Positions 4,614 through 24,994 of a stretch of 64,000 bases of DNA are shown in pieces. The stretch spans positions 1-64,000 of the forward strand of contig CAJJAK010000011.1 in NCBI GenBank assembly GCA_905182165.1. The letters are read 5' to 3'. A program made the translations under genes and the position numbers. This DNA is from an uncultured Paracoccaceae bacterium. GTDB lineage: Bacteria; Pseudomonadota; Alphaproteobacteria; Rhodobacterales; Rhodobacteraceae. Each line of letters starts with the position of its first letter. Position 1 is the first letter of the stretch. The notes beneath the pieces were generated by a model. That model was not told the origin of the DNA, made no database searches, and saw nothing but the letters and a program-made list of their open reading frames with translations.

Positions 4614-5279
4614 TTATTTACTTTTATGAAGACCTTGAAGTTGAAGGTCAAAACCTTCTTCAATATGTTTTGTAAAAACTTCTAAGGTCTCTGTTTTATC
4701 TCCAGTTTCTATAACATCGACTAACTCCATATGATCACCGAGAGATTGCTTTAAATCCACATTCTCAATCGCTGCAAATATTGGGAACACATTGGCTTTG
4801 CCCCAAATCATATTGAACATTTGAATAAGAAATCTATTGTCCGCAAGTTCAACAAACTTAAAATGAATGTTTCTATTAGCTTCGAAATAAGCTCTTGCCG
4901 TATGAACTTTTAAATCTTCTTCTTTAATGATTGTTTGCCGTAGTGCCTCTATATCCAGTGGGTTATTTTTACTGGCAAGTATACGAGCACACTGCCCTTC
5001 TATAGCGGCTCTAGATTGATAGAGTTCGCGGACTTCTTTATCGCCCATTTCATAAATTTTGAAACTTCCACGATTGGTAACTTCCAAAACACCTTCTTGT
5101 TCTAAACGCATTAGTGCTTCTCGAACAGGGGTTCGGCTAATTTGCAATTCTGCCGCAAGTTTTTCTTGAATTAATCTATCTTCAGCTACTATATCTCTAT
5201 TAACGATAGCATTTATGATTTGATCGTAGACTTGGTCTGCCAATCGCCGCCTTGCTGGTTGAATGCTTTTAAGTGCCAA
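4614..5279 (-). CDS. GntR-family regulator with FCD domain
   Basis: A 221-residue regulator of the FadR/VanR branch. The winged helix-turn-helix is at residues 12-75 (LAAELQISRTPVREALMRLEQEG is the recognition region) and an all-helical FCD effector domain fills the remainder. FCD domains usually bind small organic acids with a metal ion. It is divergent from the GlxBCD-like operon. The gap holds a palindrome centred on GTATAC, the kind of core this family uses, and a second copy lies at 10595-10610. I infer that it is the local repressor of the amine/microcompartment locus. The ATG at 5279 is preceded by the AGGTTTACC segment. The frame is intact. Confidence 0.9.
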   Translation of the reverse strand: MALKSIQPARRRLADQVYDQIINAIVNRDIVAEDRLIQEKLAAELQISRTPVREALMRLEQEGVLEVTNRGSFKIYEMGDKEVRELYQSRAAIEGQCARILASKNNPLDIEALRQTIIKEEDLKVHTARAYFEANRNIHFKFVELADNRFLIQMFNMIWGKANVFPIFAAIENVDLKQSLGDHMELVDVIETGDKTETLEVFTKHIEEGFDLQLQGLHKSK

Positions 5280-5440: not shown

Positions 5441-6386
5441 ATGTGCGGGATCGCTGGTAGAATTTTGGGAGCTCCTGGGACGGTGGGAAAAGATCTAGTG
5501 GATCTAATGGATGCCCAAGCACACAGAGGTGCTGATAGTACTGGATTTGCTATCTATGGTATACCACGTGAAACTGGTTATGTCTCTAAGAGGTATGGGA
5601 TTTTCACGTGAAAAAGTGGATTCTGATCTCTCAAATTTTACTAATATTTTGCGTGATAATGGGTCTGATTTTTTAAAAGATCCAGAAATTTTAATAGATT
5701 CTAATAAGCATTATTGTTTTAGGATGGAAATTTCTGATCCAAAAGATTTGTCAGCATGGATTGCTGATGCTGATTCTTTGGCGAATAGTATAGAAATCCA
5801 ATCTTGCGGCCGGTCTCTCGAAATTATAAAAGATACTGGTGGAGCATCAGCTGTAGCAGATAAACACAATGTCAGGGACATGATAGGTACACACGGCCTT
5901 GGGCATGCAAGGTTAGCTACTGAAAGTTCTGTTTTACCAAACGCAAGCCATCCCTTTTGGGCGAGACCATTTTCTGATGTTGCAATTGTTCATAATGGGC
6001 AAATAACAGATTACTTTACCTGGAAAGAAAAGCTGAAAAGAAAGGGTTATCGATTTTTGACTGAAAACGATAGCGAGCTTATTGCTATTTGGGTTTCTGA
6101 CCAAATGAAATCCGGTCTTTCGATGGAACAAGCTTTAAAAAAATCACTAACGTCTATTGATGGGTGTTTTACTTATATGATTGCGAGTACAAATGAAATT
6201 GGGTTTGCTAAAGACAGGTTTGCACTAAAACCTTTGGTGGTTATTGATGAAAGTGGTAATCTGGCTGCTGCAACTGAAGAGCAAGCTGTAAGACGGATCT
6301 TTAAAGGTGAAAATGATGTTATTAATTATGATGGCCCAAGTCTCACGGGTATTTGGGGTATCGGAAATAGGAGCCTTGCAGCATGA
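5441..6386 (+). CDS. Class II glutamine amidotransferase subunit, GlxB/MgsA-like (one frameshift)
   Basis: An Ntn-type glutaminase domain equivalent to the N-terminal domain of glutamate synthase. It starts with MCGIAG, so the nucleophile is Cys2 after Met removal, and a strong AAGGGAG box precedes the ATG. AHRGADSTGFAIYG follows, as expected for this fold. The frame breaks near 5585; the rest (HNGQITDYFTWKEKL, NDSELIAIW) runs on in the next frame. Total length is about 314 residues. With the next two genes it forms a three-polypeptide split glutamate-synthase-like enzyme, as in N-methylglutamate synthase (MgsABC) and rhizobial GlxBCD. It overlaps the next gene by four bases (ATGA). Confidence 0.85.
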
Positions 6387-7075
6387 GCGAAGTAATCGTT
6401 GAGGTTGGGGATCGTCACATTCGTGAAATCAATGAAGAAATTCAAGATCTTTGTCGAAAAAATAAGAAAATTCGAATTATAAATACATTATCACGGCATA
6501 ATCTAGGTATTGGTTTACCGCCTAATTGTGAATTATCTTTTGAAGGAAGTGTTGGGTATTTTTGTGGAGGTTTAAATACAGGTGCAAAACTATCAATTGA
6601 ACGTAACGCTGGCTGGGCCTGTGGAGAGGGAATGTCTGATGGCATGATTACAGTTGGAGGTTATGCAGGTATGTCTGTCGGTGCAGCAATGATAGGTGGA
6701 ACAATTCATGTTAAGGGTAACTCTGGGCCACGTTGTGGAGTAGCAATGAAAGGCGGTAATATCATTGTTGAAGGTAAGATCGGCTATCAATCTGGTTTTA
6801 TGGCGCATTCTGGTAAAATAATAGCGCTAGGAGGAGCAGGAGATAGCTGTGCTGATGCGCTTTGGGCTGGAGAAGTATGGGTTGCTGGTCCTATCGATGG
6901 TTTGGGTGTGGATGTGAATGTTGTGGAGCCAACTGCGGAGGAGGTTTCGGAAGTTGACGATATTTTGAAACCTTTGGGTTTGCAAGATTCGTCGAGAGAT
7001 TGGCGTAAGATGGTATCAGGCCAGCGCTTATGGTATTTTGAAAGTAGGGATGCAAATGCATGGCTCATGATTTAG
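6383..7075 (+). CDS. GXGXG-domain subunit, GlxC/MgsB-like
   Basis: A 230-residue protein made almost entirely of the right-handed beta-helix repeat found in the C-terminal domain of glutamate synthase large subunit. Repeated G-x-x-x-G units run from about residue 50 to 170 (GGYAGMSVGAAMIGGTIHVKG and similar). The role is structural, linking the glutaminase and FMN modules. It is translationally coupled on both sides: ATGA with the upstream gene, and a 16-base overlap with the downstream one. The frame is intact. In MgsABC-type enzymes this is the beta-like subunit. Confidence 0.87.
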   Translation: MSEVIVEVGDRHIREINEEIQDLCRKNKKIRIINTLSRHNLGIGLPPNCELSFEGSVGYFCGGLNTGAKLSIERNAGWACGEGMSDGMITVGGYAGMSVGAAMIGGTIHVKGNSGPRCGVAMKGGNIIVEGKIGYQSGFMAHSGKIIALGGAGDSCADALWAGEVWVAGPIDGLGVDVNVVEPTAEEVSEVDDILKPLGLQDSSRDWRKMVSGQRLWYFESRDANAWLMI

Positions 7076-8466
7076 ATAAACCTTATGAATATCCTTTTGA
7101 GGTAGCTTCAGAAGATGAAATAAAATTTTCCAAAGGTGCAATTAAAGGACGTCCTGCGGGGGTCCCCTCTTCTTATGATGAGGGTGGTTCAACGCGTTGG
7201 ACTCCGGACGCTATAGCGGAAGTTCACTCCAGGCAAAGGAAGTGCTGTGTTTATTCATTTAACAAACAATTACCCACATTTGATGATCTAACTTTTGTGC
7301 CAGCAACTATGACACGTTTGCCTTTAGAGGGTTATCGCGAAAGTTGTGATTCCACTACGGTTTTAGGTGCTGGAAGAGGGTTAGTAGAGAAACCTTTAAA
7401 ATTAAAAATCCCTATTTATATTGCTTCAATGTCCTTTGGTGCATTGTCAGCGAATGCGAAAGCCTCTCTTGGCTACGGTGCTTCTAAAGTGGGCACAATG
7501 ACATGCACTGGGGAGGGTGGAATGCTAGAGGAAGAGCGTGCAGCCTCTCAAAGACTTTTGTATCAAATGTCTCCAGCAAGATATGGTGTTGATTTAGACC
7601 ACCTTCGACGGGCTGATGCTTTAGAGATTGTTGTTGGTCAGGGAGCAAAGCCAGGTACAGGAGGGCTATTGCTTGGCATGAAAGTGAGCCCAAGAGTTTC
7701 TAAAATGCGAACTTTACCTGAAGGTGTTGATCAAAGATCTACAATTAGGCATCCAGATTTTATGGGTGCAGATGATTTGTCGGTAAAAATAGAAGAATTA
7801 AGAATTGCCACTAATTACCAAGTTCCAATTTTTATTAAAATGGGTGCTACTAGACCTCGTTTTGATGTTGCTGTTGCCGCAAAAGCTGGTGCAGATGTTG
7901 TTGTTGTAGATGGTGCTGAAGGTGGCACTGGCGCGTCACCTGAAATGCTATTGAACCATACTGGAATTCCAACAATGAGTGCTATCCGTGCTGCAAGAGA
8001 AGCACTTGACGAATGTGGCATGTCTGGAAAAGTTGATTTAGTTGCTGCTGGAGGTATCAGAACAGGTGTAGATGCTGCAAAATGTTTAGCACTGGGCGCT
8101 GATGCTGTGATGATTGGCAATGGTGCGATGATTGCAATGGGTTGTAATTCACCAAGGTATGAAGATGATTATTCGGCACTTGGAACTTCACCGGGTGCAT
8201 GTCATCATTGCCACACGGGCCTTTGTCCAGTTGGTATCGCGACGCAAGATGCTGAGCTTGAGAAAAGAATGAATCCTCACGCTGGAGCGGAGCGAGTTGC
8301 TCGCTACTTAACGGCCATGACTATGGAGATAACTGCTTTGGCGAAGGCCTGTGGTAAATCATCTGTTCACAATTTAGAAGTTGAGGATTTACGAGCTCTC
8401 TCTTTTCAAGCGTCCGCTTTTACTGGAGTAAAGATGGCTGGGATAGATAGGGCATTTGACTGGTAG
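7060..8466 (+). CDS. FMN-binding glutamate-synthase-like subunit, GlxD/MgsC-like
   Basis: A 468-residue TIM-barrel protein equivalent to the FMN/synthase domain of GltB. Visible hallmarks are the YIASMSFGALS strand, GEGGM, the KPGTGG loop, the VVVDGAEGGTGASP phosphate-binding segment, and a C-x2-C-x4-C cluster (C381, C384, C389) that fits the iron-sulfur site of the family. In N-methylglutamate synthase this subunit transfers an amine onto glutamate to give an N-alkylglutamate. In glutamate synthase it aminates 2-oxoglutarate. The lack of a GltD-like subunit favours the GlxBCD/Mgs type. The frame is intact, although a short C-terminal tail follows the core. Confidence 0.88.
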   Translation: MAHDLDKPYEYPFEVASEDEIKFSKGAIKGRPAGVPSSYDEGGSTRWTPDAIAEVHSRQRKCCVYSFNKQLPTFDDLTFVPATMTRLPLEGYRESCDSTTVLGAGRGLVEKPLKLKIPIYIASMSFGALSANAKASLGYGASKVGTMTCTGEGGMLEEERAASQRLLYQMSPARYGVDLDHLRRADALEIVVGQGAKPGTGGLLLGMKVSPRVSKMRTLPEGVDQRSTIRHPDFMGADDLSVKIEELRIATNYQVPIFIKMGATRPRFDVAVAAKAGADVVVVDGAEGGTGASPEMLLNHTGIPTMSAIRAAREALDECGMSGKVDLVAAGGIRTGVDAAKCLALGADAVMIGNGAMIAMGCNSPRYEDDYSALGTSPGACHHCHTGLCPVGIATQDAELEKRMNPHAGAERVARYLTAMTMEITALAKACGKSSVHNLEVEDLRALSFQASAFTGVKMAGIDRAFDW

Positions 8467-8522
8467 ATAATATAAAAAATATTCTAAATTTTGAAGTATA
8501 AATTTTAAAACCTAAAAATAAA

Positions 8523-9360
8523 CTATAATACATATCCTTCTCCAGACGCCCTCACTGTTAGGTCAGCTATTGCAACCCCTAAAGGTTGATTTATTGTGTA
8601 CACAATCTGTTCGGCAAGATGTTCTGGGCTTAAAGCATAGTATTCGATATCGTTTGCATCACTATTTTTGGGCGGTAAAATTCCAGCATCGTAATCATCC
8701 ATCATCTTTATGTAATTCAGCGCATTTTGACCTAAGATGCCAACAATTGCATCCTCATTTATTATTCCTGCACCCAATCCAGTTCCACGTACACCAGTTG
8801 GCTTGATTATTGTGACTTTTATTTTGCCTTGAGATTCTACTCTAAGAGATTCTGAAAGAAAGTTTACAGCAGCTTTTGTCGCTCCGTATACACCTGCCCC
8901 TGCCACTGGATAGTTTCCGTATATAGAGGATATATTTACTACGTGCCCACTTCCTTGCAAAATCATTTGATCGTATGCTGAAACAATCCCATTTAGCACA
9001 CCTTTTATATTAATATCGATACAGTTATCCCAAGGTTTTGTTGCTTTTATGTGGTCTGCATAAAAAGCTAAAGGCATTGTGCCTGCATTATTTATTAATA
9101 CATCAATTCGGCCAAATTTATTTTTTGTTTTAACCATTTAAAAATTTCATTTGGGTTAAACTAGTAACATCAGCTTCAACATTTACTAATATGATGTTTC
9201 TAGTTTGTACATAATCTTTGGTATTCTTTAATTCAATTTTATTGATGTCACATCTTACAACCATTGCCTCCAATTCCAAGCATTTTAGAGCCACAAGTCG
9301 TCCAAATCCACTTGCTGCACCTGTAACAACAACTACTTTGTTTCTTAAGTGATTTTGCAT
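8523..9360 (-). CDS. Short-chain dehydrogenase/reductase (one frameshift)
   Basis: A classical SDR with the nucleotide-binding motif TGAASGFG, NNAG, the catalytic Ser region (NISSIYG) and the YGATK tetrad. The start is taken at MQNHLRNK (9360). The frame breaks near 9130, close to an A/T run, and continues in the adjacent frame. It lies downstream of the flavin oxidase on the same strand, so the two probably share a transcript driven from the 10595 operator. An NAD(P)H-dependent reductase here could clear aldehyde or ketone products of the locus; the substrate is unknown. Confidence 0.83.
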
Positions 9361-9422
9361 TTTTAAAATATAACTCCTAAAAATAGTTAATTCAGCGAGC
9401 ACTTCTTACAGTTTTAAAGACT

Positions 9423-10562
9423 TTACCTACCAGATGGGCTTTCTTTCGGGCTGAGTTTTTTACGTCCTGCCACCTTAAACCGATCTGCTGTTCCATAATC
9501 ACCCATTGCTACACCAGAAACGAATTCACCAAAAATGGGGCCATGTTTGAACAAGTGTCCTGAGCAACCGCCTGCAAAAAGAACATTTTGATGTTCAGGA
9601 TGCCAATCAACTACAAAGTGGGTATCTGGCGTCATAATAATTTGATTAAATTTTGAATCTACCACCTTTTCCCCCTCTAATAACGGAAATCTATGTTTTA
9701 TATAACTTTGGGTCCTTGCAAGTGCTTCTCGCCTGATTAATCTCTCATCATTATCCAAATCAATTTTTTCAGGAATTGCTATCATCGCTTTTATTCCTGA
9801 ACCTTCACTAGAAGGAATACCAAAAGAGTTTTGCCCATGATCAATCCAGCATGGCATCTTTTCTTTATCAAAGGCATCACTTCCATTAGGGGTTGATGTG
9901 TAAAAAACAGGTAACCCTATTATTGACGAAATTGGTTTAATTGTTTTTGGAAACATTTCTGACATCCAGGCTCCTGTTGAGATGACTATTACATCAGCCT
10001 CTAGGGGCTTGCCGTCTAGCAGAGGCTTTTCTGAAGCATCAGTAGTTACGTGACCCCGTTTAACAATACCTCCTGATTTTTTAAATAAATCAATGCCAGT
10101 AATTACGCATCTGTGGGCCATGAGCATTCCTGCCTCAGGTTCGTAAAGAGCATACTTAATCTCAGGGACTCTAAATTGCGGAAACCTTGCCGCAATATCA
10201 GCTTTATCGAATTTGTAGTAGGGTACGCCAACTTTATCAAATGTGGCTGCTGTAGCATCTTCCCAATCAGAGTGCCCTTCAGTTGCCAGAATGAGGGCCC
10301 CACATTCATACATCAGGTTTTGCCCTGTTTCTGCCTGCATCTCTAGCCAACGTAGTCGACTTTCCCGTGCCCAGCGCGTGTAAAACTCATCATTACCAGA
10401 AATTGCCCGAATTACTCTATTATAATCTGAGGAAGCTGCTCTTGCGTGGCCGGGTTCCCATCGATCGATAAGAGTCACTTGATTGCCGCGTCTTTGCAGA
10501 TCCAAAGCTGTCATTGTGCCAGCTATTCCGCCTCCCACTACAATAATATTGCTCATTGCCAT
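9423..10562 (-). CDS. FAD-dependent amine oxidase/dehydrogenase of the monomeric sarcosine oxidase (SolA/MSOX) family
   Basis: A DAO-fold flavoprotein of 379 residues. The GxGxxG dinucleotide-binding motif is at the extreme N-terminus (VVGGGIAG), followed by the LIDR acidic end and, near the C-terminus, MTPDTHFVVD and GGCSGHLFKHGP. These match the sarcosine oxidase/N-methyltryptophan oxidase family, which oxidises secondary amines or imino acids. The cysteine that carries covalent FAD in that family (six residues before the Pro of TPD) is replaced by Asn, so FAD is probably non-covalent. The start at 10562 has an AAGG box. It is divergent from the glutamine-synthetase-like gene with a GntR-type operator between them. 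The frame is intact. Confidence 0.85.
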   Translation of the reverse strand: MAMSNIIVVGGGIAGTMTALDLQRRGNQVTLIDRWEPGHARAASSDYNRVIRAISGNDEFYTRWARESRLRWLEMQAETGQNLMYECGALILATEGHSDWEDATAATFDKVGVPYYKFDKADIAARFPQFRVPEIKYALYEPEAGMLMAHRCVITGIDLFKKSGGIVKRGHVTTDASEKPLLDGKPLEADVIVISTGAWMSEMFPKTIKPISSIIGLPVFYTSTPNGSDAFDKEKMPCWIDHGQNSFGIPSSEGSGIKAMIAIPEKIDLDNDERLIRREALARTQSYIKHRFPLLEGEKVVDSKFNQIIMTPDTHFVVDWHPEHQNVLFAGGCSGHLFKHGPIFGEFVSGVAMGDYGTADRFKVAGRKKLSPKESPSGR

Positions 10563-10594
10563 TAAAAAAACCTTGCTATCCGTTGTACTTATGA

Positions 10595-10610
10595 ATACTG
10601 TATACAGAAT
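10595..10610. promoter_or_regulatory. Second copy of the GntR operator palindrome
   Basis: ATACTGTATACAGAAT matches the perfect palindrome at 5375-5390 in 15 of 16 bases, and both sites have a TTGTAC motif a few bases upstream. It lies in the divergent gap between the flavin oxidase and the synthetase/microcompartment operon. One regulator could therefore control both directions and the upstream GlxBCD-like operon. Confidence 0.7.
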
Positions 10611-10651
10611 ACAGATAACTAGCAACAGAAACTTGTTACAAGGATAGCTAC

Positions 10652-11948
10652 ATGTCTTTAGAAGATTTTTCACTTCCAGAAGGTACTCATACCGTTGTTT
10701 TAGGGTTGGGTGATTTGAATGGAATTATGCGTGGCAAGCGTATTCCTGCAAGTAATTGGGAAAATATATGTAAGAATGGAAACGCCTTATCTGCAGCACT
10801 CTTTGCATTAGATATGGTGTGTGATGTTTGGGATACGCCTTATGTCAACATGGATAATGGGTATCCAGATTTTCATATGTTCCCAATCACTAAACCAGTT
10901 AGTTTGCCTTGGGAACCAGGTGTTGCATTAGCATTTGCCCGAGCAGAGGGAATGGATCACAAGCCTGTGCCCATAGATCCTCGGCAGGTATTGATTCGGC
11001 AACTTGAGCGAGCCCAGAAGATGGGAATTGATATCCAAGTTGGAGCAGAGCTTGAATTTTATTTACTAGATCCGGAAACTGGCCTTCCAAAAGAAAAAGG
11101 CAATGGGGTTTACAGCTTGGAGAGAGCTGCGGAGTTGGAACATGTTCTAGGGCCAATTAGAAACAACCTTAATGAGATGGGTATACCTGTTGAACAGTCA
11201 AATCCAGAATATGCAGAGGGCCAGGTAGAAGTTAATATTCGTTATGATGGAGCCTTGTTAGCAGCTGATCGTGTGATTACTTTTCGTAACTTAGTGAAGC
11301 AATTAGCATTCAGTCATGGGTATAAAGCAACATTTATGGCTAAACCATTTTTTGAACAATCTGGAAGCGGTTTTCATTAATTTTTCAATGGTAGATAAAA
11401 ATGGAAAGAATATTTTTGCAAAAGATGGAAAGCTTAGTCAAATAGGAAGATATTTTGTCGGTGGCTTGCAGAAGCGAATGGCAGAATCTTCAATATGTGG
11501 AAGTGCCACGGTAAATGGTTTTAGACGTAGGCAGCCATACACATTTTGCCCCATTAATACTGCTTGGGGTGTGGATAATAGAACGGTAGGATTAAGAATA
11601 ATTGAAGGTTCTGAGAGCGCTACCCGAGTTGAGAAGCGAGATGCGGGAGCTGATTGTAATCCATACTTTCTTATCGCAACTGATATTGCCGCTGGTCTTG
11701 ATGGTATCGAAGGAAAAATTGAGCCAGATGAAATGACAACTGGCAATGCTTATGAATCTAAAACAGCAGAACCAATACCTACAGACTTGAGAGATGCAAT
11801 CGAACTTGCGCGTGGTTCAGATTGGCTTCGTAAAGTGATTGGTGATGATTTATGTGAAATAGCATTGCAACAAAGCGAACGTGAATTGGAATTATTCTCA
11901 CAGCAGGTGACCGCATTTGAATTAGATCGGTATAGGGATGTTTTTTAA
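10652..11948 (+). CDS. Glutamine-synthetase-like gamma-glutamyl-amine ligase (one frameshift)
   Basis: A GS-fold enzyme of about 432 residues, of the GlnT/GmaS/PuuA type, not the housekeeping GlnA type. Recognisable metal and nucleotide motifs are GAELEFYLLD, EGQVEVN, GSGFH, and the C-terminal block RVEKRDAGADCNPY. The frame breaks at about 11378, right after GSGFH, and continues as INFSMVDKNG in the next frame. Such enzymes join the glutamate gamma-carboxyl to an amine using ATP. The divergent flavin oxidase and the downstream shell genes suggest that it captures the substrate of the microcompartment pathway. Its stop overlaps the BMC-P start by one base. Confidence 0.85.
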
Positions 11949-12130
11949 TGAAAATTGGTAAAATTACTGGGCATGTAAATGCCACTGCGAAGGATCCAAA
12001 GCTAGTTGGATTGAAAACCCTTATAGCTGATATTGTGGATAGTGACGGTGTGACTTTATCACCTGCAATGGTTCAAGGTGACACTGCTCCTCAAGCAATT
12101 ATTAAAGCTTTAGATTTAATATTACTATAA
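11948..12130 (+). CDS. Short EutN/CcmL-family shell pentamer protein (BMC-P)
   Basis: Only 60 residues, against the usual 80-100. The N-terminal half (KIGKITGHVNATAKDPKLVG, then LIADIVDSDG) is a clear BMC-P strand pattern. After VQGDT the expected VGAGVGE-V-x-GSSAR section is missing, and the protein jumps to APQAIIKALDLI, which resembles the family's final P-x-D-A-x-I strand. This suggests an internal loss of about 20-25 codons, either real or an assembly error. BMC-P pentamers cap the vertices of microcompartments. It is start-coupled to the synthetase upstream. Confidence 0.75.
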   Translation: MKIGKITGHVNATAKDPKLVGLKTLIADIVDSDGVTLSPAMVQGDTAPQAIIKALDLILL

Positions 12131-12223
12131 AAATACAATAAATTTGGGATACGAGGAAGATCCGATGTCCTTATTAAATTTATAATTCAAAACAAATAAA
12201 CAACCAAAAGAAGGAAAAATAAA

Positions 12224-12532
12224 ATGGCTAAATCAATTCAGAGTCAAATGGCGCTTGGTATGATTGAAACACGAGGGTTAGTAGCATCAATTGAAGCTGC
12301 TGATGCAATGGTAAAAGCGGCTAGCGTTACAATAGTTGGGCAAACCAAAAATGGTGGAGGACTGATTTCGACACTTGTACGGGGTGAAGTTGGGGCTGTG
12401 AAGGCTGCGACTGATGCCGGTGCTACTTCAGCAAATAAGGTAGGAGAAGTTGTGTCAGTTCATGTTATTGCGCGGCCACATGATGAGCTAGAAGCTTTAA
12501 TTGATGCTTTAGGTAGCGGTGGTGCAGAATAG
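12224..12532 (+). CDS. BMC-domain shell hexamer protein (BMC-H, PduA/EutM/CcmK type)
   Basis: A single 102-residue BMC domain. It opens with [24 protein letters not shown] and contains the conserved K-x-G-G-G loop around residue 43 (the central pore loop region) and [14 protein letters not shown] near the end. Six copies form the flat facet tiles of a microcompartment. A strong AAGAAGGA ribosome site precedes it after a 90-base gap, as expected for the most abundant shell protein. The frame is intact. It is the only BMC-H gene in the window, so the shell gene set is minimal. Confidence 0.95.
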
Positions 12533-12582
12533 AGTTTTGCAAACTGTTTTTCTATACTCTTTAAGTCTGAAAGGTTTGTAAA

Positions 12583-13782
12583 ATGAGCTCTGGTTTTGAT
12601 GAATTTACTGAGGCGGTATCTAAATCCACAACCAAAAAGCCAGTTATTGAAAGTAAATCATTTTCTCGTATAGCTGTTTTAGGTGGTGGAGCTGATGCTA
12701 GGTTAATTGCGGCTCTATGCTTGTCAGAGGGTGCAGAAGTAAAATTATTTTCCGCTTATGGAGAGGAATTGTCGGCATTAAGATCTTCAAGTGGCGTAAC
12801 GCTTAGAGGAGCTGGCCCAGTTGGAACATATCATGTTGATAGAGAAGACGGCCCGTCCATACGCACTACTGCAGAATTAGATGGAGCAGTTACTGACGCA
12901 GAATTAATATTTCTAACAGGTCCGGTGCACAAGCAGAGGACTTATTCAATGGTTCTTGCTGACCATTTAAAAGATGGTCAAGTTTTAGTGGTTGCACCTG
13001 GAAGATCTTTGGGGGCGTTAGAGACTGCTTGGTTGTTAAGGATTGGTGGCTGCACTGCTGACGTTACTATCGTTGAGGCGCAAGGGTTGCCCTATTGGTA
13101 TGATGAGGCAGGTTCTATTTTAACTTTATCTCAAGTGGCACCCATGCCAGCAGCAACATTGCCAAGTGGTCGTCCTGAAATTTTAAGTGCTCTTAAGAAA
13201 TATTTCCCAAATTTGGTTATGTTTGATAGTGTTTTGGGTTCTGGGTTTTCAGATGGGTCAGCTTTGGTTGAAGTGCCTACATTGTTGATGGGGGGACCAT
13301 CGCTTCAAAGTGGCGCTGCTTCGATTCCAATGGGCGGTCAGTATCTTGAAAATAACCGTACTTTTGCCTCTCTTATAGGTCCTGCACACAAAGCAGTTAT
13401 TTCGAAGTTAACTGAAGAACGTCATTTGGTTGCGAAATCATTTGGTATTCGTAATTTACCTTCTTCTGACGAAATGATTGATACTTATGGTGGTAGTTTG
13501 AGAGGTGATTATAGTCGTCCCATTCCATCACACAAAATGTCTAAATCTTTATTGAGATGTGGTGTTATTGGATCATTAGTTCCACTAAAATCTGCTGGAA
13601 ATATTGCTAATGTCCAAGTTCCAGTCACAACCGCTATAATTACTTTGGCTTCTAGTGTTCTAGGTGCTGACGTCTCGGCCGCTGGTAGGCGATTGGAGGC
13701 GATTGGAATAGACTCGGGTGATATTGATACGGCTCGACGTGCAATGGACGCAATCGCAACAGGGGAAAAATATGGACGCTGA
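12583..13782 (+). CDS. Opine dehydrogenase-like NAD(P)-binding protein in the microcompartment operon
   Basis: A 399-residue two-domain dehydrogenase. A Rossmann motif is at residues 30-40 (IAVLGGGADAR), TGPVHK follows at the end of the nucleotide domain, and a C-terminal helical domain of the octopine/nopaline dehydrogenase type completes it. Opine dehydrogenases reversibly reduce the imine of an amino acid and a keto acid to an N-(carboxyalkyl) amino acid. Residues 1-20 form an extra amphipathic segment (SSGFDEFTEAVSKS) ahead of the Rossmann fold that could be an encapsulation peptide. The reading frame overlaps the aldehyde dehydrogenase start by eleven bases. The true substrate is unknown; the family assignment is moderately sure. 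Confidence 0.72.
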   Translation: MSSGFDEFTEAVSKSTTKKPVIESKSFSRIAVLGGGADARLIAALCLSEGAEVKLFSAYGEELSALRSSSGVTLRGAGPVGTYHVDREDGPSIRTTAELDGAVTDAELIFLTGPVHKQRTYSMVLADHLKDGQVLVVAPGRSLGALETAWLLRIGGCTADVTIVEAQGLPYWYDEAGSILTLSQVAPMPAATLPSGRPEILSALKKYFPNLVMFDSVLGSGFSDGSALVEVPTLLMGGPSLQSGAASIPMGGQYLENNRTFASLIGPAHKAVISKLTEERHLVAKSFGIRNLPSSDEMIDTYGGSLRGDYSRPIPSHKMSKSLLRCGVIGSLVPLKSAGNIANVQVPVTTAIITLASSVLGADVSAAGRRLEAIGIDSGDIDTARRAMDAIATGEKYGR

Positions 13783-15144
13783 TTTAAAATCAATCGCTGC
13801 AGCTCGACGTTGTGCTGAAACTGCATTTGAGGCTTACCGCCAGTTTTTGGGTACAGACCCAAGCAGAGTAGATGCTATTGTTGATGCTGTAAGTGGTGTT
13901 ACTCGTGATAGACATTATGGGAAGTCTGAGTGAAAGATTTCAAAATGGCAGCGAAGAGCTATAAACGAATAAAAGATATGTTTAATGCTGTGTCTGTGGC
14001 AGATTATTTGCGAGATGTAACTACTTTAGGCATGCTTTGGAAAGATGATGCTACTAAGGTTGCTGCATTTGGAGAACCTATGGGACTTGTAGCAGCGCTA
14101 ATCCCTGTCACTAATCCTACGTCTACAATTATTTATAAAGTTTTATCCGCAGTAAAAGCTGGTAATGCAATAGTATGTGCGCCACATCCAAGAGCATTAC
14201 GTTGTGGTTTAGAGGTAACTAGACTTTTAGCTAATGTTGCTGAGCAAATGGGAGCACCTAAAGGCTTAATTCAATGTTTAGAACACGTCACAATTCAGGG
14301 AACAGCTGAATTGATGAGTCATAAAAGAACTTCAGTAGTAATGGCCACAGGTGGCCCAGCCATGGTTAAAGCAGCGTATTCTTCTGGAAAACCTACTTTG
14401 GCAGTAGGGGCTGGTAATGTACCGTGTTATGTTAATAAGTCGAAAGCAAATGATATTGCAGAAGTTGCTGAGCAAATTGTTGTTTCCAAGAGCTTTGATT
14501 ACGGCACAGCTTGTGTCTCAGAGCAAGCAGTGGTTGTTGATAAGGAAATAGCGCGAGAATTGCGTAATGAGTTAAAACTTAAGGGTGCTTATTTTTGTAC
14601 TCCAGCTGAATCTGATCGATTGGCGAAGGTTATCTTTCTTGGGAAGCAACGAATGAATCCTGATAGAGTTGGTCAGTCACCAGAAGTTTTAGCAGAATTA
14701 GCTCAATTCTCAATTCCGCCAAAAACAAGAATTTTAGTTTCGGAAGAAACCGAAATAGGATGGCATAGGCCCCTATCTGCTGAGAAGTTGAATCCAGTGT
14801 TGGCATTTTATGTAGCGAATAATGAGGAACATGCACTGGAATTATCGAACAATATCGCAAAATTTGAAGGTTGGGGCCATTCTTCTGTTGTTCATTCTAA
14901 TGATCCTCAGGTTGTGGCGAAGTTTGCTAGTATTCCTACGGGTAGGGTCTTGGTAAACACACCAGCTATTTTAGGGGGTATGGGATACTCTACTGACTTA
15001 GAACCAAGCTTCATGCTGGGTACTGGAACTTGGTCTGGTTCAATAACATCAGATAATGTTACTGCCCTTCATTTGATTAACATAAAGCGTGTTGCATACG
15101 AAAGTCGGCCATGGCGTGATATTTATGAAGAGTATGGAGAATAA
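13772..15144 (+). CDS. CoA-acylating aldehyde dehydrogenase, EutE/PduP type (one frameshift)
   Basis: The signature cargo enzyme of metabolosomes: aldehyde + CoA + NAD+ gives acyl-CoA + NADH. Start [13 protein letters not shown] at 13772. The frame breaks at 13928 and resumes as [16 protein letters not shown] single missing base restores a 458-residue protein, matching EutE/PduP length. Motifs: [29 protein letters not shown], and the catalytic-cysteine segment GTACVSEQ (Cys near residue 247). It lies between the opine-dehydrogenase-like gene and BMC-T. The aldehyde substrate cannot be read, but short aliphatic aldehydes are typical. Confidence 0.92.
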
Positions 15145-15146
15145 AG

Positions 15147-15770
15147 ATGAGCGATATAACAATACGTGCATTAATACAGATAGATAATTTACAACCTAAG
15201 TTTGCTGCTTACAATGGCGCGACTGTTCAAGGATCAGTTCCGCTATCTGGTGACACAGTCTTAATTGGTGAGTTTGCACCTGGAAACGGTGTGTTCACCT
15301 TAATAGATAGAGCTTTAAAAGCTAGTTCCGTTGAGGCAACGAGCCAGTTAGTTGAAAGAGAATTTGGTTTTTTTATTTTACGTTCACCGTCGAATGCTGA
15401 AATCAGTGCTGCTAGAGATTCAATTCTGTCTGAACTAGGTGCATCAATGACAGATCGGGTTAAGCCGAAAGTAGCAACCACTCAAATAATAACATCTGTT
15501 GAGCCTTATCAAGCACAATTACTTAATAAATGGCGTAAAGGTTCACTTTTGGTGCCTGGTCAAACCTTGGGAATTATCGAATGTGAGCCTGCAGCATATA
15601 TTTCTATTGCTGCTAATGAAGCTGAAAAAGCGGCTGATATAGATATTGTTGAAGTAAGAGCAGTCGGTCGGTTTGGTCGTTTATTTATTTCAGGTTCAGA
15701 GAATTCTGTCCAAACAGGAATTGATGCTGCGATTGAAGCAATTGAATCGGTTGATGGTAAGGTTATTTAA
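15147..15770 (+). CDS. Tandem BMC-domain shell trimer protein (BMC-T)
   Basis: A 207-residue protein with two consecutive BMC domains (about residues 3-95 and 105-205). The second begins GQTLGIIECEPAAYISIAANEAEKAADI and ends with the VGRFGRLFISG strand pair. BMC-T trimers form pseudohexamers with larger, sometimes gated pores that admit cofactors or substrates. The start is three bases after the aldehyde dehydrogenase stop, with GGAGA upstream, and its stop overlaps the next ATG (TAATG). The frame is intact. Confidence 0.92.
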   Translation: MSDITIRALIQIDNLQPKFAAYNGATVQGSVPLSGDTVLIGEFAPGNGVFTLIDRALKASSVEATSQLVEREFGFFILRSPSNAEISAARDSILSELGASMTDRVKPKVATTQIITSVEPYQAQLLNKWRKGSLLVPGQTLGIIECEPAAYISIAANEAEKAADIDIVEVRAVGRFGRLFISGSENSVQTGIDAAIEAIESVDGKVI

Positions 15771-16957
15771 TGTCTGAAAATCGAGTAATCGGGTCTGAGC
15801 ATATTGAAGACGCGCGACAGCGTGGACGCTTGGTTTTTGAGATCTTACCTGGTGATATTGTAACAAGTTTAGCGAAAGAAACAGCAAGCCGAGTAGGGAT
15901 AGAATTAATTGATGGCCCAATTGAAAAGCCAACAATCGCTAGAACAGATGGTAAAACATCAATGGGACGTAGCCTTTATCGCCGGTCGCCAAAATGGATA
16001 GCTCCAGAAAAAAAAATTTCGACTAGAGCTTTAAGGTTTTCAAAAATCTCAATTGTAGGTGCTGGAGGCGTGGGTGCGAATATTTCACATTTGGCCGCGA
16101 ATATGGATTTATCTGATGAAATTGCGATTATTGATATTGTACCAGGATTAGCTGCCGCGACTGCATTGGACTTAAATCATGCCAGTGGCATAACTCGATC
16201 AAGCGCTAGAATTTTGGGTGGTGAAACTTTAGACTTAATTAATGGGTCGGAGGTGGTGATTGTAACAGCAGGCCGTGCTCGAACGCCTGGGATGACGAGA
16301 AGTGACTTAATTAACATAAATAAGCGAGTTATCCAATCTACGGCGGAAACAATAAAACAGCAGTCACCAGAGGCTATTGTGATTGTTGTAACAAATCCAT
16401 TGGATGAAATGACGATGGAAATGTTAACAGCCACTGGTTTTCCTCGTGAACGTGTTTTGGGAATGGCAGGAACACTTGATAGCAGTAGGTTTAGAAGATC
16501 TTTAGCAATGGCAGCTGGTGTAAAAACAGCTGATGTTGAAGCAATTACCCTTGGAAGTCATGGAGATGAAATGGCGCCAATTATATCTCATGCAAAAATA
16601 AAGGGCCGATCATTGGAGAGATTTCTATCTAGTGAGGAGATAGCAGCATGTTCGAAAGATGCAATTACTGGTGGTGGGCAAGTCGTTGCATTGAAAAAAA
16701 TGGGCTCTGCTACGATTGCGCCAGCGCATGCCTCGATTGAAATACTCAATCATATTAGGGGAGCAAAGAGCGGTTCAGTGCCAGTATCAGTTATGTTAGA
16801 TGGTGAGTTTGGGTTAAATAATGTAGTTTTGGGAGTGCCAGCTTTTCTTGGCTTCAAAGGATTGGTATCAGTTGAAGAGATTAAATTATCGCCAATTGAG
16901 ATGAAGGCGTTGCATGATTCAGCAGACGCAATACGAAAGCGCCTAGGTTTGAAATGA
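15770..16957 (+). CDS. Malate/lactate dehydrogenase with EutQ-like N-terminal extension
   Basis: The C-terminal 310 residues are an LDH-like malate dehydrogenase: GAGGVG at 97-102, RARTPGMTR (R169, R171, R177; the Arg-rich loop typical of malate rather than lactate enzymes), TNPLDEM, and catalytic LGSHGDE (H264). Residues 10-47 (EHIEDARQRGRLVFEILPGD, then VTSLAKETASRVGIEL) resemble the N-terminal segment of EutQ and related microcompartment proteins. A linker ending in MGRSLYRRSPKWIAPEKK joins the parts. I infer that the extension targets the enzyme to the shell, where it would regenerate NAD+ for the aldehyde dehydrogenase. No alcohol dehydrogenase is present in this operon. Confidence 0.88.
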   Translation: MSENRVIGSEHIEDARQRGRLVFEILPGDIVTSLAKETASRVGIELIDGPIEKPTIARTDGKTSMGRSLYRRSPKWIAPEKKISTRALRFSKISIVGAGGVGANISHLAANMDLSDEIAIIDIVPGLAAATALDLNHASGITRSSARILGGETLDLINGSEVVIVTAGRARTPGMTRSDLININKRVIQSTAETIKQQSPEAIVIVVTNPLDEMTMEMLTATGFPRERVLGMAGTLDSSRFRRSLAMAAGVKTADVEAITLGSHGDEMAPIISHAKIKGRSLERFLSSEEIAACSKDAITGGGQVVALKKMGSATIAPAHASIEILNHIRGAKSGSVPVSVMLDGEFGLNNVVLGVPAFLGFKGLVSVEEIKLSPIEMKALHDSADAIRKRLGLK

Positions 16958-17372
16958 GTGTAAAGACATTTAAATCAGGTGGGCGTTTAGAAGGAGTTGG
17001 AAGTTATTCGCGTGCGAAAAGAATTGGGCCATTTGTATATGTCGCCGGTACAACAGCAATTGAGCCAAGTGGAAAATTACACGCACCCAATGATACTTAT
17101 GCGCAATCAATATATATATTCCGAAGAATCGAAGAGGCTTTGAAAGCTGTTGGCGCCGATATGAAACATGTCGTTCGCACAACGGCTTATATGACTGATA
17201 TGAAGCTCTTGGTGGTGCTGAATTTGTAAAGGCTCATGGTGAGGTTTTTAAAAATATTAATCCTGTAACTGCTGGTGTTGAGGCGGGGTTAACAACTCCT
17301 GGGATGATGGTTGAAATTTCAGTTGACGCAGTAGTACATGATAGCGATGGAAACATCGAAATGAACAAATGA
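16954..17372 (+). CDS. RidA-family enamine/imine deaminase (one frameshift)
   Basis: A YjgF/YER057c/UK114 protein of about 139 residues. It overlaps the dehydrogenase stop (ATGA). The N-terminal part (GPFVYVAGTTAI, VGADMKHVVRTTAYMTDM) breaks near 17200. The next frame continues EALGGAEFVKAHGEVFKNIN, PVTAGVEAGL and MVEISVDAV to a TGA at 17370. RidA proteins hydrolyse reactive imines released by flavin amine oxidases and PLP enzymes. That fits a pathway with an amine-oxidising flavoenzyme. Also annotated elsewhere as 2-iminobutanoate/2-iminopropanoate deaminase. Confidence 0.85.
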
Positions 17373-17395
17373 GGAATAACATGAAAGGATTTATT

Positions 17396-18184
17396 ATGAG
17401 TATTAATATAAAAGATAAAATAGCTATAGTGACGGGTGCTAGCCGTGGTATTGGTGAAGGAATTGCTAAAATTTTTGCAAATGAAGGTGCTACAGTTATT
17501 TGTGCAGCGCGGACAATTGATGATGGCGAACGAGTCGTGAAATCAATAAATGAAAATGGTGGATCTGCAATTTTTATTCAAGCTGACATACGCTTAGAGG
17601 AGGACTGTCACTAGACTAGTACATACTGTTGTTAGAAAAATATGGTCGATTGGATGTTATGTGCCATAATGCTGGCATTTATCCTGACGAGCTTATGGAA
17701 GAAATGTCCATAGAAACATGGGATAATACAATTAATACAAATTTAAGATCGTGTTTTTTATTAACCAAACCTTGTATTAATATTATGCGCACTCAAAAAT
17801 CTGGACGTATATTATTCACATCTTCTATAACTGGCCCAAATGTTGCGCAGGCCCGTCTTTCAGCGTATTCCTCAAGTAAAGGTGGGGTAAATGCATTTAT
17901 AAAGGCTGCGTCGTTAGAATTGGCAAAAGATGGAATAACAGTAAATGCTGTAAGCCCTGGTAACATAGTTACCGAAAGTATGAAGAATTTATACGGTGAA
18001 GAGGGTGCTAAAAGAAATAGCTAAAGTTGTGCCAACTGGTGAACTTGGTGATGCAGATGATATTGGTTACGCTATGGTTTATCTTGCTTCTGATCAGGCG
18101 AAATTCATTACTGGCCAAGCCATCGTGGTCGATGGTGGGCAAATTTTACCTGAAGATCCAGTCTCATTTTTTCGAATGCAGTAA
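17396..18184 (+). CDS. Short-chain dehydrogenase/reductase (several frameshifts)
   Basis: A classical SDR with GASRGIG near the start, HNAG, SSITG, YSSSK and the C-terminal ITGQAIVVDGG. Two breaks surround RLVHTVV at about 17610-17640 and one falls near 18000. Repairing them gives about 260 residues, the usual length. The start is ambiguous between 17381 (GAGGA box) and 17396 (AAAGGA box). It is the last gene of the microcompartment operon. A role in NADH recycling or alcohol/aldehyde interconversion is possible but unproven. Confidence 0.82.
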
Positions 18185-18372: not shown

Positions 18373-19612
18373 ATGCTTGCTTCAACAGCTGTAGCTGACA
18401 TTAAGGTTGGCTTTATTGGTTCATTATCAAGTGATACTGGACTAAGCATCTGAATGGGTGGAGCAAATGAGAGATGAATTGAATGCAAAAGGTGGCATTT
18501 TGGGACAGCAAATTACACTTGTAACTGCTGATACCCGTCAAGATGTTACTGAAGGTATAAAGGCTTATGAATATTTAGCTGAAACAGCAGAAGTTGATTT
18601 TATAATTTCTGGATCTATTGATGATGTTTCTTTAGGTTGGTTGCCTCGTATGCAAGAATACCAAATCCCAACTTTAGATACTTGGACATCCTATGTTGGT
18701 ATTATAGATATGTTGGTTGAAGACTATGATAGTATGAAACCTTATTTTATGAATATTGCTTCTGATGAAGCATTAGCAACACTTTATATAGACTTTGGTA
18801 AAGATGTTTTGGTTGATAAAATGGGTTGGACTTCCACTGTTATCTTGCAAGAAGATACAGCATTTGGAGGTGCTATCCATGGATTAATAAGTCAAGCTAT
18901 GGCTCCAGTTGCTGGTATTGATGTGGTTGAAACCATAGTCTACGACGTTGCAACTGTTGATTTTGCACCTTTGTACAGTAGGGCAGTGGCATCAGGCGCT
19001 GACTTTATTTACTTGATTAGTTCAGTCAACTCACAAGTTGTTTCATCTCAATATGTTAAGCTTCAAGTGCCCTTGGGTATGACAGGGGTTAATGTCGCAC
19101 CAATGGGTCAAGATTATTGGGCTGATACTGGTGGTATGGGTGGTGGCATGTCCACTTTAACTCCCATTCCAGCAGTAGGCATGAAGCTTGATCCTGCGTC
19201 TCAGGAGTTTGTTGATACGTATAAAGCAAGATACTCTTCACGCCCAATTATTCCTCATTTCAATGGCTTCAATGCTTATCATGGATTAAAGCAAGCAATG
19301 GCTGCTGCTGAAGAAGCAGGTGGTTTTAATAATACTACTTGGGTTACTGCAATGGAAAAACAAGATCTGATACTTGAGTTAGATGGTGAATTGTGGTTGC
19401 GCTACGGTTGGTGGGGTAATGATGAGATTGAACCTAGAACGGGAAGAACATACCCTCATAATTTGAGATTTGATATTACTGACGGTGTAGGTATAAATGA
19501 ATTATTAGAAAAAGTATTATTAGAAGCTGAATTACTTGAACTTACTGCAAATCCTAAAAAATATGCAAATGGTACTGTGGTGGAAGCATTTTTAGATAAA
19601 GGAAGAAAATAA
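18373..19612 (+). CDS. Branched-chain-amino-acid-type ABC transporter substrate-binding protein (frameshift, damaged signal peptide)
   Basis: A type I periplasmic binding protein of the LivJ family. The mature part begins ADIKVGFIGSLSSDTG, breaks near 18448, and continues EWVEQMRDELNAKGGILGQ, with VTADTRQD following, to a normal C-terminus. Only the end of a signal peptide (LASTAVA) is visible before the ADIK mature end; the hydrophobic core is not in frame, so the 5' end also carries damage. It heads a complete livJHMGF-like cluster. The ligand is not predictable; uptake of the substrate of the neighbouring catabolic locus is plausible. Confidence 0.85.
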
Positions 19613-19615
19613 AAC

Positions 19616-19649
19616 TTACTGGCAACAGGTGATAATTTGTTGCCAGTAA
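19616..19649 (+). promoter_or_regulatory. Intercistronic stem-loop after the binding-protein gene
   Basis: A perfect 12-base inverted repeat (TTACTGGCAACA / TGTTGCCAGTAA, loop of ten) starts four bases after the binding-protein stop and ends about 20 bases before the permease ATG. It has no U-run. Such hairpins commonly stabilise the upstream mRNA or partly attenuate transcription, so that binding protein exceeds membrane components. Confidence 0.75.
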
Positions 19650-19671
19650 ATTTAAAATTAGGTTTCATTAT

Positions 19672-20504
19672 ATGTTAGAGATTATAATACAAGGCATTTT
19701 GCTAAGTGGACTTTACGCATTAATAGCCGTTGGATTTACATTAATATTTAGTGTTGGGCGTGTTCTTAATTTAGCTTATGGCTCGTACATTATGGTTGCA
19801 GGCTATATTTATTTTTATTTTAGCCAACTTTTAGGTTTGCCCCCAATTGCAGGTTTACTTTTAGCCGGTATCCTTGGTTCCTGTATGGGGCTTTTAAAAT
19901 ACAATTTAATTGTAAAGCCACTAAAAGGGGATCATATCGCGGTAGAAATTTCAACATTGATCCTTGCTGTTGTTTTACAATCAGCTGTAATTCTGTTTTT
20001 TGGCAATAGTGCCAAAATACTCCTCCCTATTATTCCTGGAGTGATTCACATAGGAAATGCGACAGTGACTTTTAATGTTTTAGCAGCCACGGTAGCGAGC
20101 TGGCTAATTTTAATAGGTCTCTATTTATTCATTAAAAAAACTCATATTGGTCGAGCTATGATGGCAGTATCAATGGATGCTAAACAGCCAGGAACAGCAG
20201 TGGATATAATAATATGATTACTTGGGGCATTGTTGGCAATAGCCATGACGCAAGCATAGCAGTATTTAAAAACGATAACCTCAACATGTGGGTTGCACCA
20301 TTAATCATAGCAATTGCAATCGTTATTGTCGGTGGTATCGGATCAATAATTGGTACTTTGGTGGTTGCTCATATAATTGGGTTTATGGAAATTATTTCTG
20401 TTGCACTTATTTCTCCTCAACTTCGAGGTGTTTTTACAATGCTTTTGATTATTTTAGTATTAGTTATTCGGCCTAAAGGACTTTTTGGGCGGGAGGAGCT
20501 TTAA
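19672..20504 (+). CDS. ABC transporter permease, LivH type (one frameshift)
   Basis: A hydrophobic inner-membrane permease. The LivH N-terminus (GILLSGLYALIAVGFTLIFSVG, then NLAYG) and the loop IGRAMMAVSMD are clear. The frame breaks near 20208 and resumes MITWGIVG, then WVAPLIIAIAIVIVGGIGSIIG to IRPKGLFG, the family's C-terminal signature. Joined length is about 277 residues, slightly short of the usual 290-300. It abuts livM directly. Confidence 0.87.
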
Positions 20505-22175: not shown

Positions 22176-22177
22176 TA

Positions 22178-23925: not shown

Positions 23926-24160
23926 TGTTTTAATAAATCCTTTCTTGTTTTTTTTCGACAGGTAGATTGGCTTTTCAATGAATTTATTGAATTGAATTTA
24001 AATTATTATCTGTAATTTTTACGACTATAATTTGACGGAAACAGAGTCCCTAATTGCGACTAGTTATTTGCAATTAATTTGTAGTATCAATTAATTAGAT
24101 TACATTAATTTTGTTATATAAATAATTTATTAATATAAAACTTTAAGTAATAGTTTCAAA

Positions 24161-24784: not shown

Positions 24785-24994
24785 CAAGGCCTCACTTGCT
24801 TAATAAGCATATTAACACAAATTTTTATAATTTTTGCAAGATTAAGAATTTTGCAAAATAAGCTTTTCCGATAATAACAACTTTTATGGTTTATAAATAA
24901 AAAATTGGTTTAGTTATAAAAAATTCAGTTCTATAGTCAATTTGTAAACAAAATGATTTTAAATAAACGTAGATTTAACGTTTAAGGGGTTAAA

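Follow-up and report, generated by a model that had tools for sequence, protein, structure and literature searches.

How is the aldehyde made in a bacterial microcompartment (BMC) whose shell genes are accompanied by a split glutamate-synthase-like enzyme, a flavin oxidase and a glutamine-synthetase-like ligase? Known metabolosomes get theirs from dehydratases, lyases, aldolases or aminotransferases. The question is raised by a locus of an uncultured Paracoccaceae bacterium, lying in the first 64,000 nucleotides of contig CAJJAK010000011.1 (this whole stretch is the window), in which the BMC-H, BMC-P and BMC-T shell genes occur, by Pfam, together with the gene of a CoA-acylating aldehyde dehydrogenase (ALDH). 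The conserved core further comprises the ligase (GS), an MSOX-family flavoenzyme (MSOX), an opine-dehydrogenase-fold protein (ODH), a malate-type dehydrogenase (MDH) and a RidA-type deaminase, and glxBCD lies beside it (Table 1). On balance, we favour the reading that the locus encodes a metabolosome for aldehydes released from N-alkylglutamates, which would regenerate NAD+ via MDH and work without PduL. We put at about even chances the broader proposal of an N-alkyl-amino-acid-fed class, in which GS and GlxBCD would load an alkylamine on the alpha-nitrogen of glutamate, the aldehyde would be burnt in the shell, and NAD+ would return via an enclosed MDH and an ODH with a rebuilt site, with neither alcohol dehydrogenase nor phosphotransacylase.

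The original prediction, made from the sequence alone, had also proposed an N-alkylglutamate-fed microcompartment. Pfam bore out the gene cluster that it described, with the coordinates right and glxB starting at 5441; the genes that it named were the right ones, whereas the ODH, MDH and RidA of the conserved core went unnamed.

Conservation of the locus

Related loci were gathered with an ODH profile (alignment of 20 sequences) against one genome per species, yielding 67 loci; ODH is present in all of them by construction, since it was the query. Presence counts take only those loci whose DNA reaches far enough, under bit-score and distance limits of our own choosing. So counted, the other core genes occur in all loci: MSOX in 63/63, GS in 64/64, BMC-P in 64/64 (with the BMC-P of locus L113 as query), BMC-H in 65/65, ALDH in 65/65, BMC-T in 62/62, MDH in 59/59 and RidA in 57/57. 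The association of a GS-like and an MSOX gene with the shell, on which the original prediction was built, thus holds wherever there is DNA to see it (64 and 63 loci). Those core genes that are present keep the order and strands of the window in all 67 loci, and 54 loci hold all nine; in L067, MSOX begins 6 kb before GS. The carriers belong to Rhodobacteraceae/Paracoccaceae, Rhizobiales families, Geminicoccaceae, Granulosicoccaceae, Chromatiales, Arenicellales, Thiotrichaceae and Thioalkalivibrio, with many metagenome-assembled genomes (MAGs) among them. Cultured carriers include Ruegeria sp. ANG-R (L034) and Falsiruegeria mediterranea CECT 7615 (L037). The locus is spread over alpha- and gammaproteobacteria, in groups that we take to be mostly marine.

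Moreover, in a sample of 149 genomes of one family, an independent ALDH search returned exactly the same six genomes as ODH, and all six carry shell genes. MSOX (E 1e-60) was found in 6/6 of these BMC genomes versus 0/10 genomes without the locus. One of the ten locus-free genomes examined (G048) has shell genes, which by eye belong to a different, RMM-like set (L157). The family-sample searches for ODH, ALDH, GlxD and GS each used their own E limit.

Linkage of glxBCD to the shell

The original prediction would have failed if the shell operon were never linked to glxBCD. We found glxD inside the locus in 39 of the 58 loci with enough DNA, at 82-100% identity to the copy in the related locus L034. 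In 28 loci the fetched DNA contains no glxD; they represent 27 genomes (L063 and L064 share one MAG), and here the search was extended to the entire genome. In 14/14 plus 11/13 of these genomes a GlxD sharing 81% identity or more with the L034 copy lies elsewhere (five genomes with glxD inside the locus were searched along with the 14), so that a close orthologue (81-100% identical) is present in 64 of the 66 carrier genomes overall. Among the 14, it is on the same contig at most 16 kb from the end of the fetched locus in eight, at 39 and 97 kb in two, and on another contig in four. The next-best GlxD copies in carrier genomes do not exceed 58% identity to the L034 protein.

GlxD (E 1e-200) occurs in 9 genomes of the family sample, including all six with ODH, a co-occurrence with a Fisher probability of 6e-9 over the 149 genomes (kinship not corrected). 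In a class-wide sample, it was found in 3/385 genomes, namely the query's own genome and two new loci that lack a shell. Every residue count given here and below includes one sequence two times, because the reference row itself comes from one of the loci. The GlxB of the window begins with MCGIAGR, and its amidotransferase Cys is kept in 36/36 aligned rows; the three Cys of the GlxD motif CHHCHTG.CPVG are kept in 38/38.

A second ligase/synthase pair

The ligase had been taken to be GlnT/GmaS-like, a view that the family scores do not uphold. The GS of L034 reaches 244-245 bits for GmaS (TIGR03105), below the cut-off of 469.6, and 203 bits for PuuA (NF045547), below the cut-off of 650. Names of homologues were uninformative ("glutamine synthetase family protein" and the like) among the matches listed, of which there were at least 120. 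In a GS tree of 54 rows, copies from loci with and without a shell form one clade (support 99/99) apart from GmaS, and in a GlxD tree of 37 rows they again form one clade (100/99) apart from other copies, some of them GmaS-linked; both trees carried a long-branch warning. We therefore rejected GmaS as the identity of the ligase, on its score below the cut-off and its separate clade.

Canonical GmaS (TIGR03105 over its cut-off) is found in 15 of the 19 carrier genomes examined, and in 12 of the 19 (G001, G002, G003, G004, G006, G008, G011, G012, G014, G016, G017 and G019) no more than about 350 bases separate it from another GlxD, of 51-58% identity. As judged by scores and trees, the locus holds a second, diverged ligase/synthase pair beside the canonical GmaS/GlxD pair. 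Given that ligase and synthase have both diverged from the canonical pair, they would fit the same logic applied to another amine.

The GS clade (E 1e-150) is somewhat wider than the locus, being found in 13/149 genomes of the family sample, including the six with ODH. Moreover, G083, a genome with the shell-less module described below, has a second GS of the clade (L105), whose neighbour is a Liv binding protein with 86% identity to its L034 counterpart; no GlxBCD is found within the 15 kb fetched there.

Predicted oxidase, dehydrogenases and shell proteins

The MSOX homologue of L034 was aligned to monomeric sarcosine oxidase, and its residues are given in L034 numbering. R49, R52, K258 and K339 are kept in 63/63 rows, and the place of the covalent-flavin Cys holds Asn in 59 of the 63 rows and Cys in two; we assume the known roles of residues 49, 52, 265, 315 and 348 in holding the carboxylate, activating oxygen and binding the flavin covalently. 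Since the carboxylate-holding and oxygen-activating residues are kept, the alignment points to an oxidase of an N-substituted amino acid. The protein ends in SPSGR (window 9426-9440, minus strand) in 62/63 loci, the remaining one being unreadable at one residue, and this end is kept even at 52-57% identity to the MSOX of the window (L060 and L061); it is perhaps a docking tail.

The catalytic Cys of ALDH is present in 65/65 rows. The L034 enzyme scores 504 bits for acetaldehyde dehydrogenase TIGR02518 (cut-off 620), has PDB 5j78 as structure neighbour and is 28% identical to E. coli EutE. It ends where the last 35 positions of TIGR02518 would start, and these missing positions are presumably a targeting peptide. 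Taurine/sulfoacetaldehyde was set aside as substrate, with 504 bits for the acetaldehyde family versus 309 for SauS, both under their cut-offs.

The MDH of L034 exceeds the cut-off of malate dehydrogenase PRK06223, and 56/56 rows have Arg at the malate-marking place (Arg at LDH position 102, which we take as the mark of malate dehydrogenase). A profile of its N-terminal extension (57 sequences) matched the N-terminus of EutQ at E 2e-6 (16.9 bits; next match 0.17) in a small test set of 11 E. coli proteins. Pfam gave no match for this extension or for the N-terminus of ODH. We predict from these features that MDH is a luminal NAD+ recycler.

The ODH model (mean pLDDT 80) has CENDH (PDB 1bg6) as its best fold match (E 4.5e-21; TM 0.70 by query length), and the profile match between the two is 1.2e-20. 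At the N-terminus, a helix (residues 3-12, with conserved F5, F8 and A11 in L034 numbering) is followed by a variable linker, an arrangement like that of encapsulation peptides. We take H202 and D297 of CENDH to be the catalytic His/Asp pair of opine dehydrogenase. The place of H202 holds Glu in 63 and Asp in two of 65 rows, with no His conserved there, so the activity of ODH is unsure. D297 aligns with an invariant Gly, preceded by Asp in most homologues and by Cys in the window, an outcome that depends on the alignment. We regard ODH as a probable further NAD(P)-linked enzyme of the lumen; together with MDH, it probably stands in for the alcohol dehydrogenase that is missing.

Indeed, neither an alcohol dehydrogenase nor a phosphotransacylase is among the annotated genes of the locus, in agreement with the original prediction. 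PduL-type PF06130 is absent from 21 of 23 genomes and lies in the other two on contigs other than that of the locus; the Pta type was not searched genome-wide. As for the shell, the BMC-H of L034 shares 68% identity with E. coli EutM across 84 residues, and both carry the GGG motif, for which reason the idea of an unusual pore was dropped. The BMC-T of L034 has CcmP (NF053796) as its best match, at 205 bits under a cut-off of 340.

Related loci without a shell

Five loci carry the same GlxBCD clade and no shell genes (L104, L106, L107, L119 and L120). GlxBCD, a GntR regulator, RidA and a DAO-type oxidase are found in 5/5, and GS in 4/5 (not in L107). GntR lies near glxBCD, with RidA and Liv genes intervening in L106, L119 and L120; Liv-type genes occur in these three and in L104. 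The oxidase of L104 shows 32% identity to PuuB. Its counterparts in L106, L119 and L120 share 57-71% identity with the L104 protein, and the one in L107 has the same best NCBIfam match as the L104 protein, L-pipecolate oxidase, under the cut-off. In L106 the contig end cuts the oxidase, and the locus ends before the ALDH region. A non-acylating ALDH is present in all four loci that are not cut off (L104, where it is 32% identical to PuuC, L107, L119 and L120), and L104 also has two acyl-CoA ligases. In the five genomes we found no PF00936 protein and no MSOX at E 1e-60; these relatives lack ODH and rely on a flavin oxidase.

The front end thus occurs by itself, and the shell, acylating ALDH, ODH, MDH and MSOX come as a set. 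Within the GS and GlxD clades, the shell-less copies fall among the shell-linked ones; the shell has therefore probably been gained or lost more than once, or has moved. The recurrence of the same logic in these relatives favours what the original prediction said of an N-alkylglutamate-fed metabolosome, whereas its assignment of the ligase to GmaS/GlnT did not stand.

Gene content and interrupted frames of the window

Table 1. Features of the locus and its flanks in the window
Feature	Position	Strand	Basis or remark
GntR/FCD regulator	4614..5279	-	divergent from glxBCD; Pfam FCD + GntR
glxB / mgsA-like class-II glutamine amidotransferase subunit	5441..6386	+	GATase_6/7; frame changes before 5611
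glxC / mgsB-like GXGXG subunit	6383..7075	+	PF01493, 3e-15
glxD / mgsC-like FMN glutamate-synthase subunit, Cys cluster	7060..8466	+	PF01645 (Glu_synthase), 1.4e-98
MSOX-family FAD oxidoreductase, predicted N-alkyl amino acid oxidase	9423..10556	-	DAO domain
Glutamine-synthetase-like ligase, predicted gamma-glutamyl-alkylamide synthetase	10652..11948	+	Gln-synt_C in both pieces; two frames
BMC-P (EutN/CcmL) pentamer protein	11948..12199	+	PF03319, 2e-07; in-frame stop 12128-12130
BMC-H hexamer protein	12224..12532	+	PF00936, 3.7e-25
ODH, opine-dehydrogenase-fold protein, encapsulation-peptide-like N-terminus	12583..13782	+	Octopine_DH 29.5 bits (cut-off 30); predicted structure
CoA-acylating aldehyde dehydrogenase (ALDH), acetaldehyde-dehydrogenase type	13772..15144	+	PF00171 (Aldedh); frame changes near 13930
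BMC-T, tandem-domain trimer, CcmP-like	15147..15770	+	PF00936
MDH, malate-type dehydrogenase, long EutQ-like N-terminal extension	15770..16957	+	Ldh_1_N from residue 92, Ldh_1_C
RidA-type enamine/imine deaminase	16954..17372	+	PF01042 (Ribonuc_L-PSP), 4.4e-16; frame changes before 17229
Liv-type ABC transporter: binding protein, LivH, LivM, LivG, LivF	18458..22881	+	open reading frames; several genes in broken frames

In the window, glxB, GS, BMC-P, ALDH and RidA are each broken by a frame change or stop, and cobT upstream of the locus is also interrupted; split frames or stops fall in 3526-4546, 5441-6386, 10652-11948, 11948-12199, 13772-15144, 16954-17372 and 19672-20504. In related loci, 85% or more of the query falls within a single open piece for glxB in 34/37, GS in 63/64, ALDH in 64/65 and RidA in 56/57; the count for BMC-P (3/64) is uninformative, the query being longer than most BMC-P. 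Genes of unrelated function are affected, and the relatives are open, so that the interruptions look like the mark of indel-rich sequence.

The flanks are less uniform. The GntR regulator is found in 36 of 54 related loci with enough DNA, and Liv orthologues in 48/54 (binding protein) and 46/54 (LivF). SDR genes lie at 8523-9402, on the strand opposite to glxBCD, and at 17369-18024, after RidA; close orthologues of both occur only in the three nearest of the 67 loci (L001-L003), which places them outside the conserved core. At 22990-25730, 3' of the Liv genes, we recognised by eye a YlbC/LDH2-type dehydrogenase (close match in L001, weak in L031, among the 67 loci), an isochorismatase-like hydrolase (L002 and L003 only) and an M20 peptidase.

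Some relatives carry additional genes. A class-I glutamine amidotransferase with intact Cys-His-Glu, perhaps a gamma-glutamyl hydrolase, is present in 30 of 58 loci with enough DNA (L034:5697-6392, between glxD and MSOX); between glxD and MSOX of the window no such open reading frame was seen. A 134-residue protein beside MSOX (L034:6435-6836) occurs in 17 of 61 loci with DNA there and has no Pfam or NCBIfam match. A divergent member (L113/L114, in G033) has ODH 46%, GS 61% and MSOX 58% identical to those of L034, and on its contig some 14 kb lie between MSOX and glxBCD. G033 also carries a different microcompartment (L158:8516-13866), as does G048 (L157:8959-13991), with BMC-H and BMC-T-like genes and an ALDH. 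We labelled these RMM-like by eye.

Proposed pathway and its alternatives

The proposed reactions follow the published N-methylglutamate pathway. A small primary amine would be imported, perhaps via the Liv transporter, and coupled to glutamate by the GS-like enzyme at the expense of ATP. GlxBCD, a split GOGAT-like enzyme, would then transfer the alkylamino group to 2-oxoglutarate, yielding an N-alkylglutamate. The MSOX-family flavoenzyme would oxidise this product and RidA would help the imine to break, giving glutamate and the aldehyde, which luminal ALDH would convert to acyl-CoA and NADH. An alkyl group larger than methyl would yield an aldehyde that the acylating enzyme can process in this way. 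Luminal MDH would regenerate NAD+ from oxaloacetate, and the acyl-CoA would leave the shell, given that PduL is present in just 2 of 23 genomes. We infer reactions, enzyme locations and substrate from gene content and order, conservation, clades, residues, extensions and the shell-less version of the module. Ethylamine or another short alkylamine is our guess for the substrate, on account of the acetaldehyde-type dehydrogenase and the EutM-like hexamer. For a marine GmaS, PMC7948447 gives a Km of 58 uM for ethylamine, which is thus nearly as good a substrate as methylamine (27 uM), with propylamine poor (1.8 mM). The scheme is weakest in its substrate, in the position of MSOX relative to the shell and in the role of ODH.

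Several observations weigh against this scheme. No encapsulation peptide can be recognised in MSOX, and the aldehyde may therefore arise outside the shell; ALDH is without the C-terminal part of its family model. The helix and linker of ODH fall in a stretch (1-23) with pLDDT below 50, and the hydrophobic moment of the helix is high, not extreme (87th percentile of windows of its own protein, 49 sequences). GS is under the cut-off of all five NCBIfam families matched. The universality of ODH being by construction, the ALDH search of the family sample is the sole independent look at the association. Two of the 66 carrier genomes, both MAGs, show no clade GlxD, the G559 copy has an inner stop, and in 6 of the 14 genomes described above glxD is 39-97 kb distant or sits on a different contig. 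Within the family sample, GS occurs without GlxD in 5 of 13 genomes (G040, G048, G052, G082 and G121), which means that the ligase is not always tied to GlxBCD; the reverse case, GlxD without GS, is seen in 1 of 9 (G106). The PuuB- and PuuC-like enzymes of the shell-less loci would also fit a gamma-glutamylation route, and no tested substrate was found for any enzyme of the locus or of its close relatives.

It is unlikely, if worth keeping in mind, that ODH and not MSOX frees the aldehyde in the shell, by an NAD+-linked oxidation of the N-alkyl amino acid modelled on saccharopine dehydrogenase chemistry, with MSOX acting on an earlier or side substrate. Such a role would suit the encapsulation-peptide-like N-terminus, a fold that stands for secondary-amine chemistry, and the shell genes in all six ODH genomes of the family sample; yet the shell-less relatives manage with a flavin oxidase in place of ODH, and Glu or Asp at the catalytic His place leaves its activity in doubt. 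We consider rather improbable a Puu-like route, in which GS would glutamylate the amine, the oxidase and dehydrogenase would act on the gamma-glutamyl compound, the class-I amidotransferase would remove the glutamyl group, and glxBCD would serve elsewhere. GlxBCD, present in 64/66 genomes, has no place in such a route, and it would be unusual for a CoA-acylating ALDH to act on a gamma-glutamyl aldehyde. The hydrolase, with its intact Cys-His-Glu in 30/58 loci, counts in favour, but is missing from the other 28 (whole genomes were not searched for it). The five genomes with clade GS and no GlxD are likewise in line with this route, as is the 32% identity of the L034 GS to PuuA, matched by that of the L104 oxidase to PuuB and of the L104 ALDH to PuuC.

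Two further explanations have little to recommend them. A shell that handles opines or N-(carboxyalkyl) amino acids from marine animals, with ODH splitting them and MDH reducing the 2-oxo acid, is very improbable: it would account for the ODH fold and the Liv uptake system, but would leave GS, GlxBCD and the acylating ALDH unexplained, and the catalytic His is missing. We give scarcely any credence to a relic or chance cluster in which the broken frames would mark a decaying locus. Five conserved genes and neighbours such as cobT are indeed interrupted in the window, but the genes stand in order in 67 other loci, nearly all open where the count is informative, and the breaks are scattered as expected of indel-rich sequence.

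Relation to known systems

In the N-methylglutamate pathway, as set out in PMC6237917, the gamma-glutamyl amide is the product of GmaS; for NMGS (MgsABC) that paper proposes a transfer of the methylamino group to 2-oxoglutarate, in likeness to GS/GOGAT. The locus resembles this pathway in its GS-family ligase and split GlxBCD/MgsABC, followed by a flavin enzyme predicted here to act on an N-alkylglutamate. It differs in that its GS and GlxD fall in clades apart from the canonical pair and that a shell and an acylating ALDH are added; moreover, MgdABCD is not in the locus, whose annotated open reading frames include the MSOX-like gene only and no multi-subunit sarcosine-oxidase-type genes. With the Puu pathway (PuuABCD) it shares a GS-like ligase, a flavin oxidase and an ALDH acting on an amine, whereas GlxBCD, the acylating ALDH and the shell set it apart and its GS is far under the PuuA cut-off.

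Its shell genes and ALDH mark the locus as a metabolosome. Among microcompartments, the EUT type is resembled in the EutM-like BMC-H, the acetaldehyde-type ALDH, the EutN-type pentamer and the EutQ-like extension of MDH. However, no EutBC ammonia-lyase, EutD or EutG is among the annotated genes of the locus, which would have another source of aldehyde. For PVM/MIC1, PMC4207490 proposes that a lactate/malate dehydrogenase does the work of the alcohol dehydrogenase, and the locus likewise has MDH; the class-II aldolase by which PVM acts on fucose/rhamnose (same source) is not in the locus. The RMM of Rhodococcus/Mycobacterium is described there as an incomplete metabolosome core proposed for amino alcohols. 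It has aminotransferase and phosphotransferase genes, none of which was found in the locus. We rejected membership of EUT, RMM or PVM on gene content. According to PMC4207490, other described BMC types also lack a phosphotransacylase.

The original prediction knew of no described metabolosome with such chemistry, and in the open-licence PMC literature searched (titles and abstracts, no preprints) we found no description of such a locus or chemistry either. The 2021 BMC catalogue (PMC8217296) lists metabolosome types whose aldehyde source is not known (MIC2-7, MUF2-3), and its main-text sections 6, 7, 8 and 11 mention no gene set of this kind. The locus may belong to one of these types, and hence be already catalogued.

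Biological meaning

If the proposed pathway is true, a shell coupled to amine N-glutamylation would be a new aldehyde entry route for metabolosomes. The shell-less sister module offers the same front end with and without a shell, which makes the benefit of the shell directly testable. Moreover, the pathway would give a predicted function to a BMC locus of alpha- and gammaproteobacteria, in mostly marine groups, and would connect microcompartment shells with the turnover of short alkylamines in the sea.

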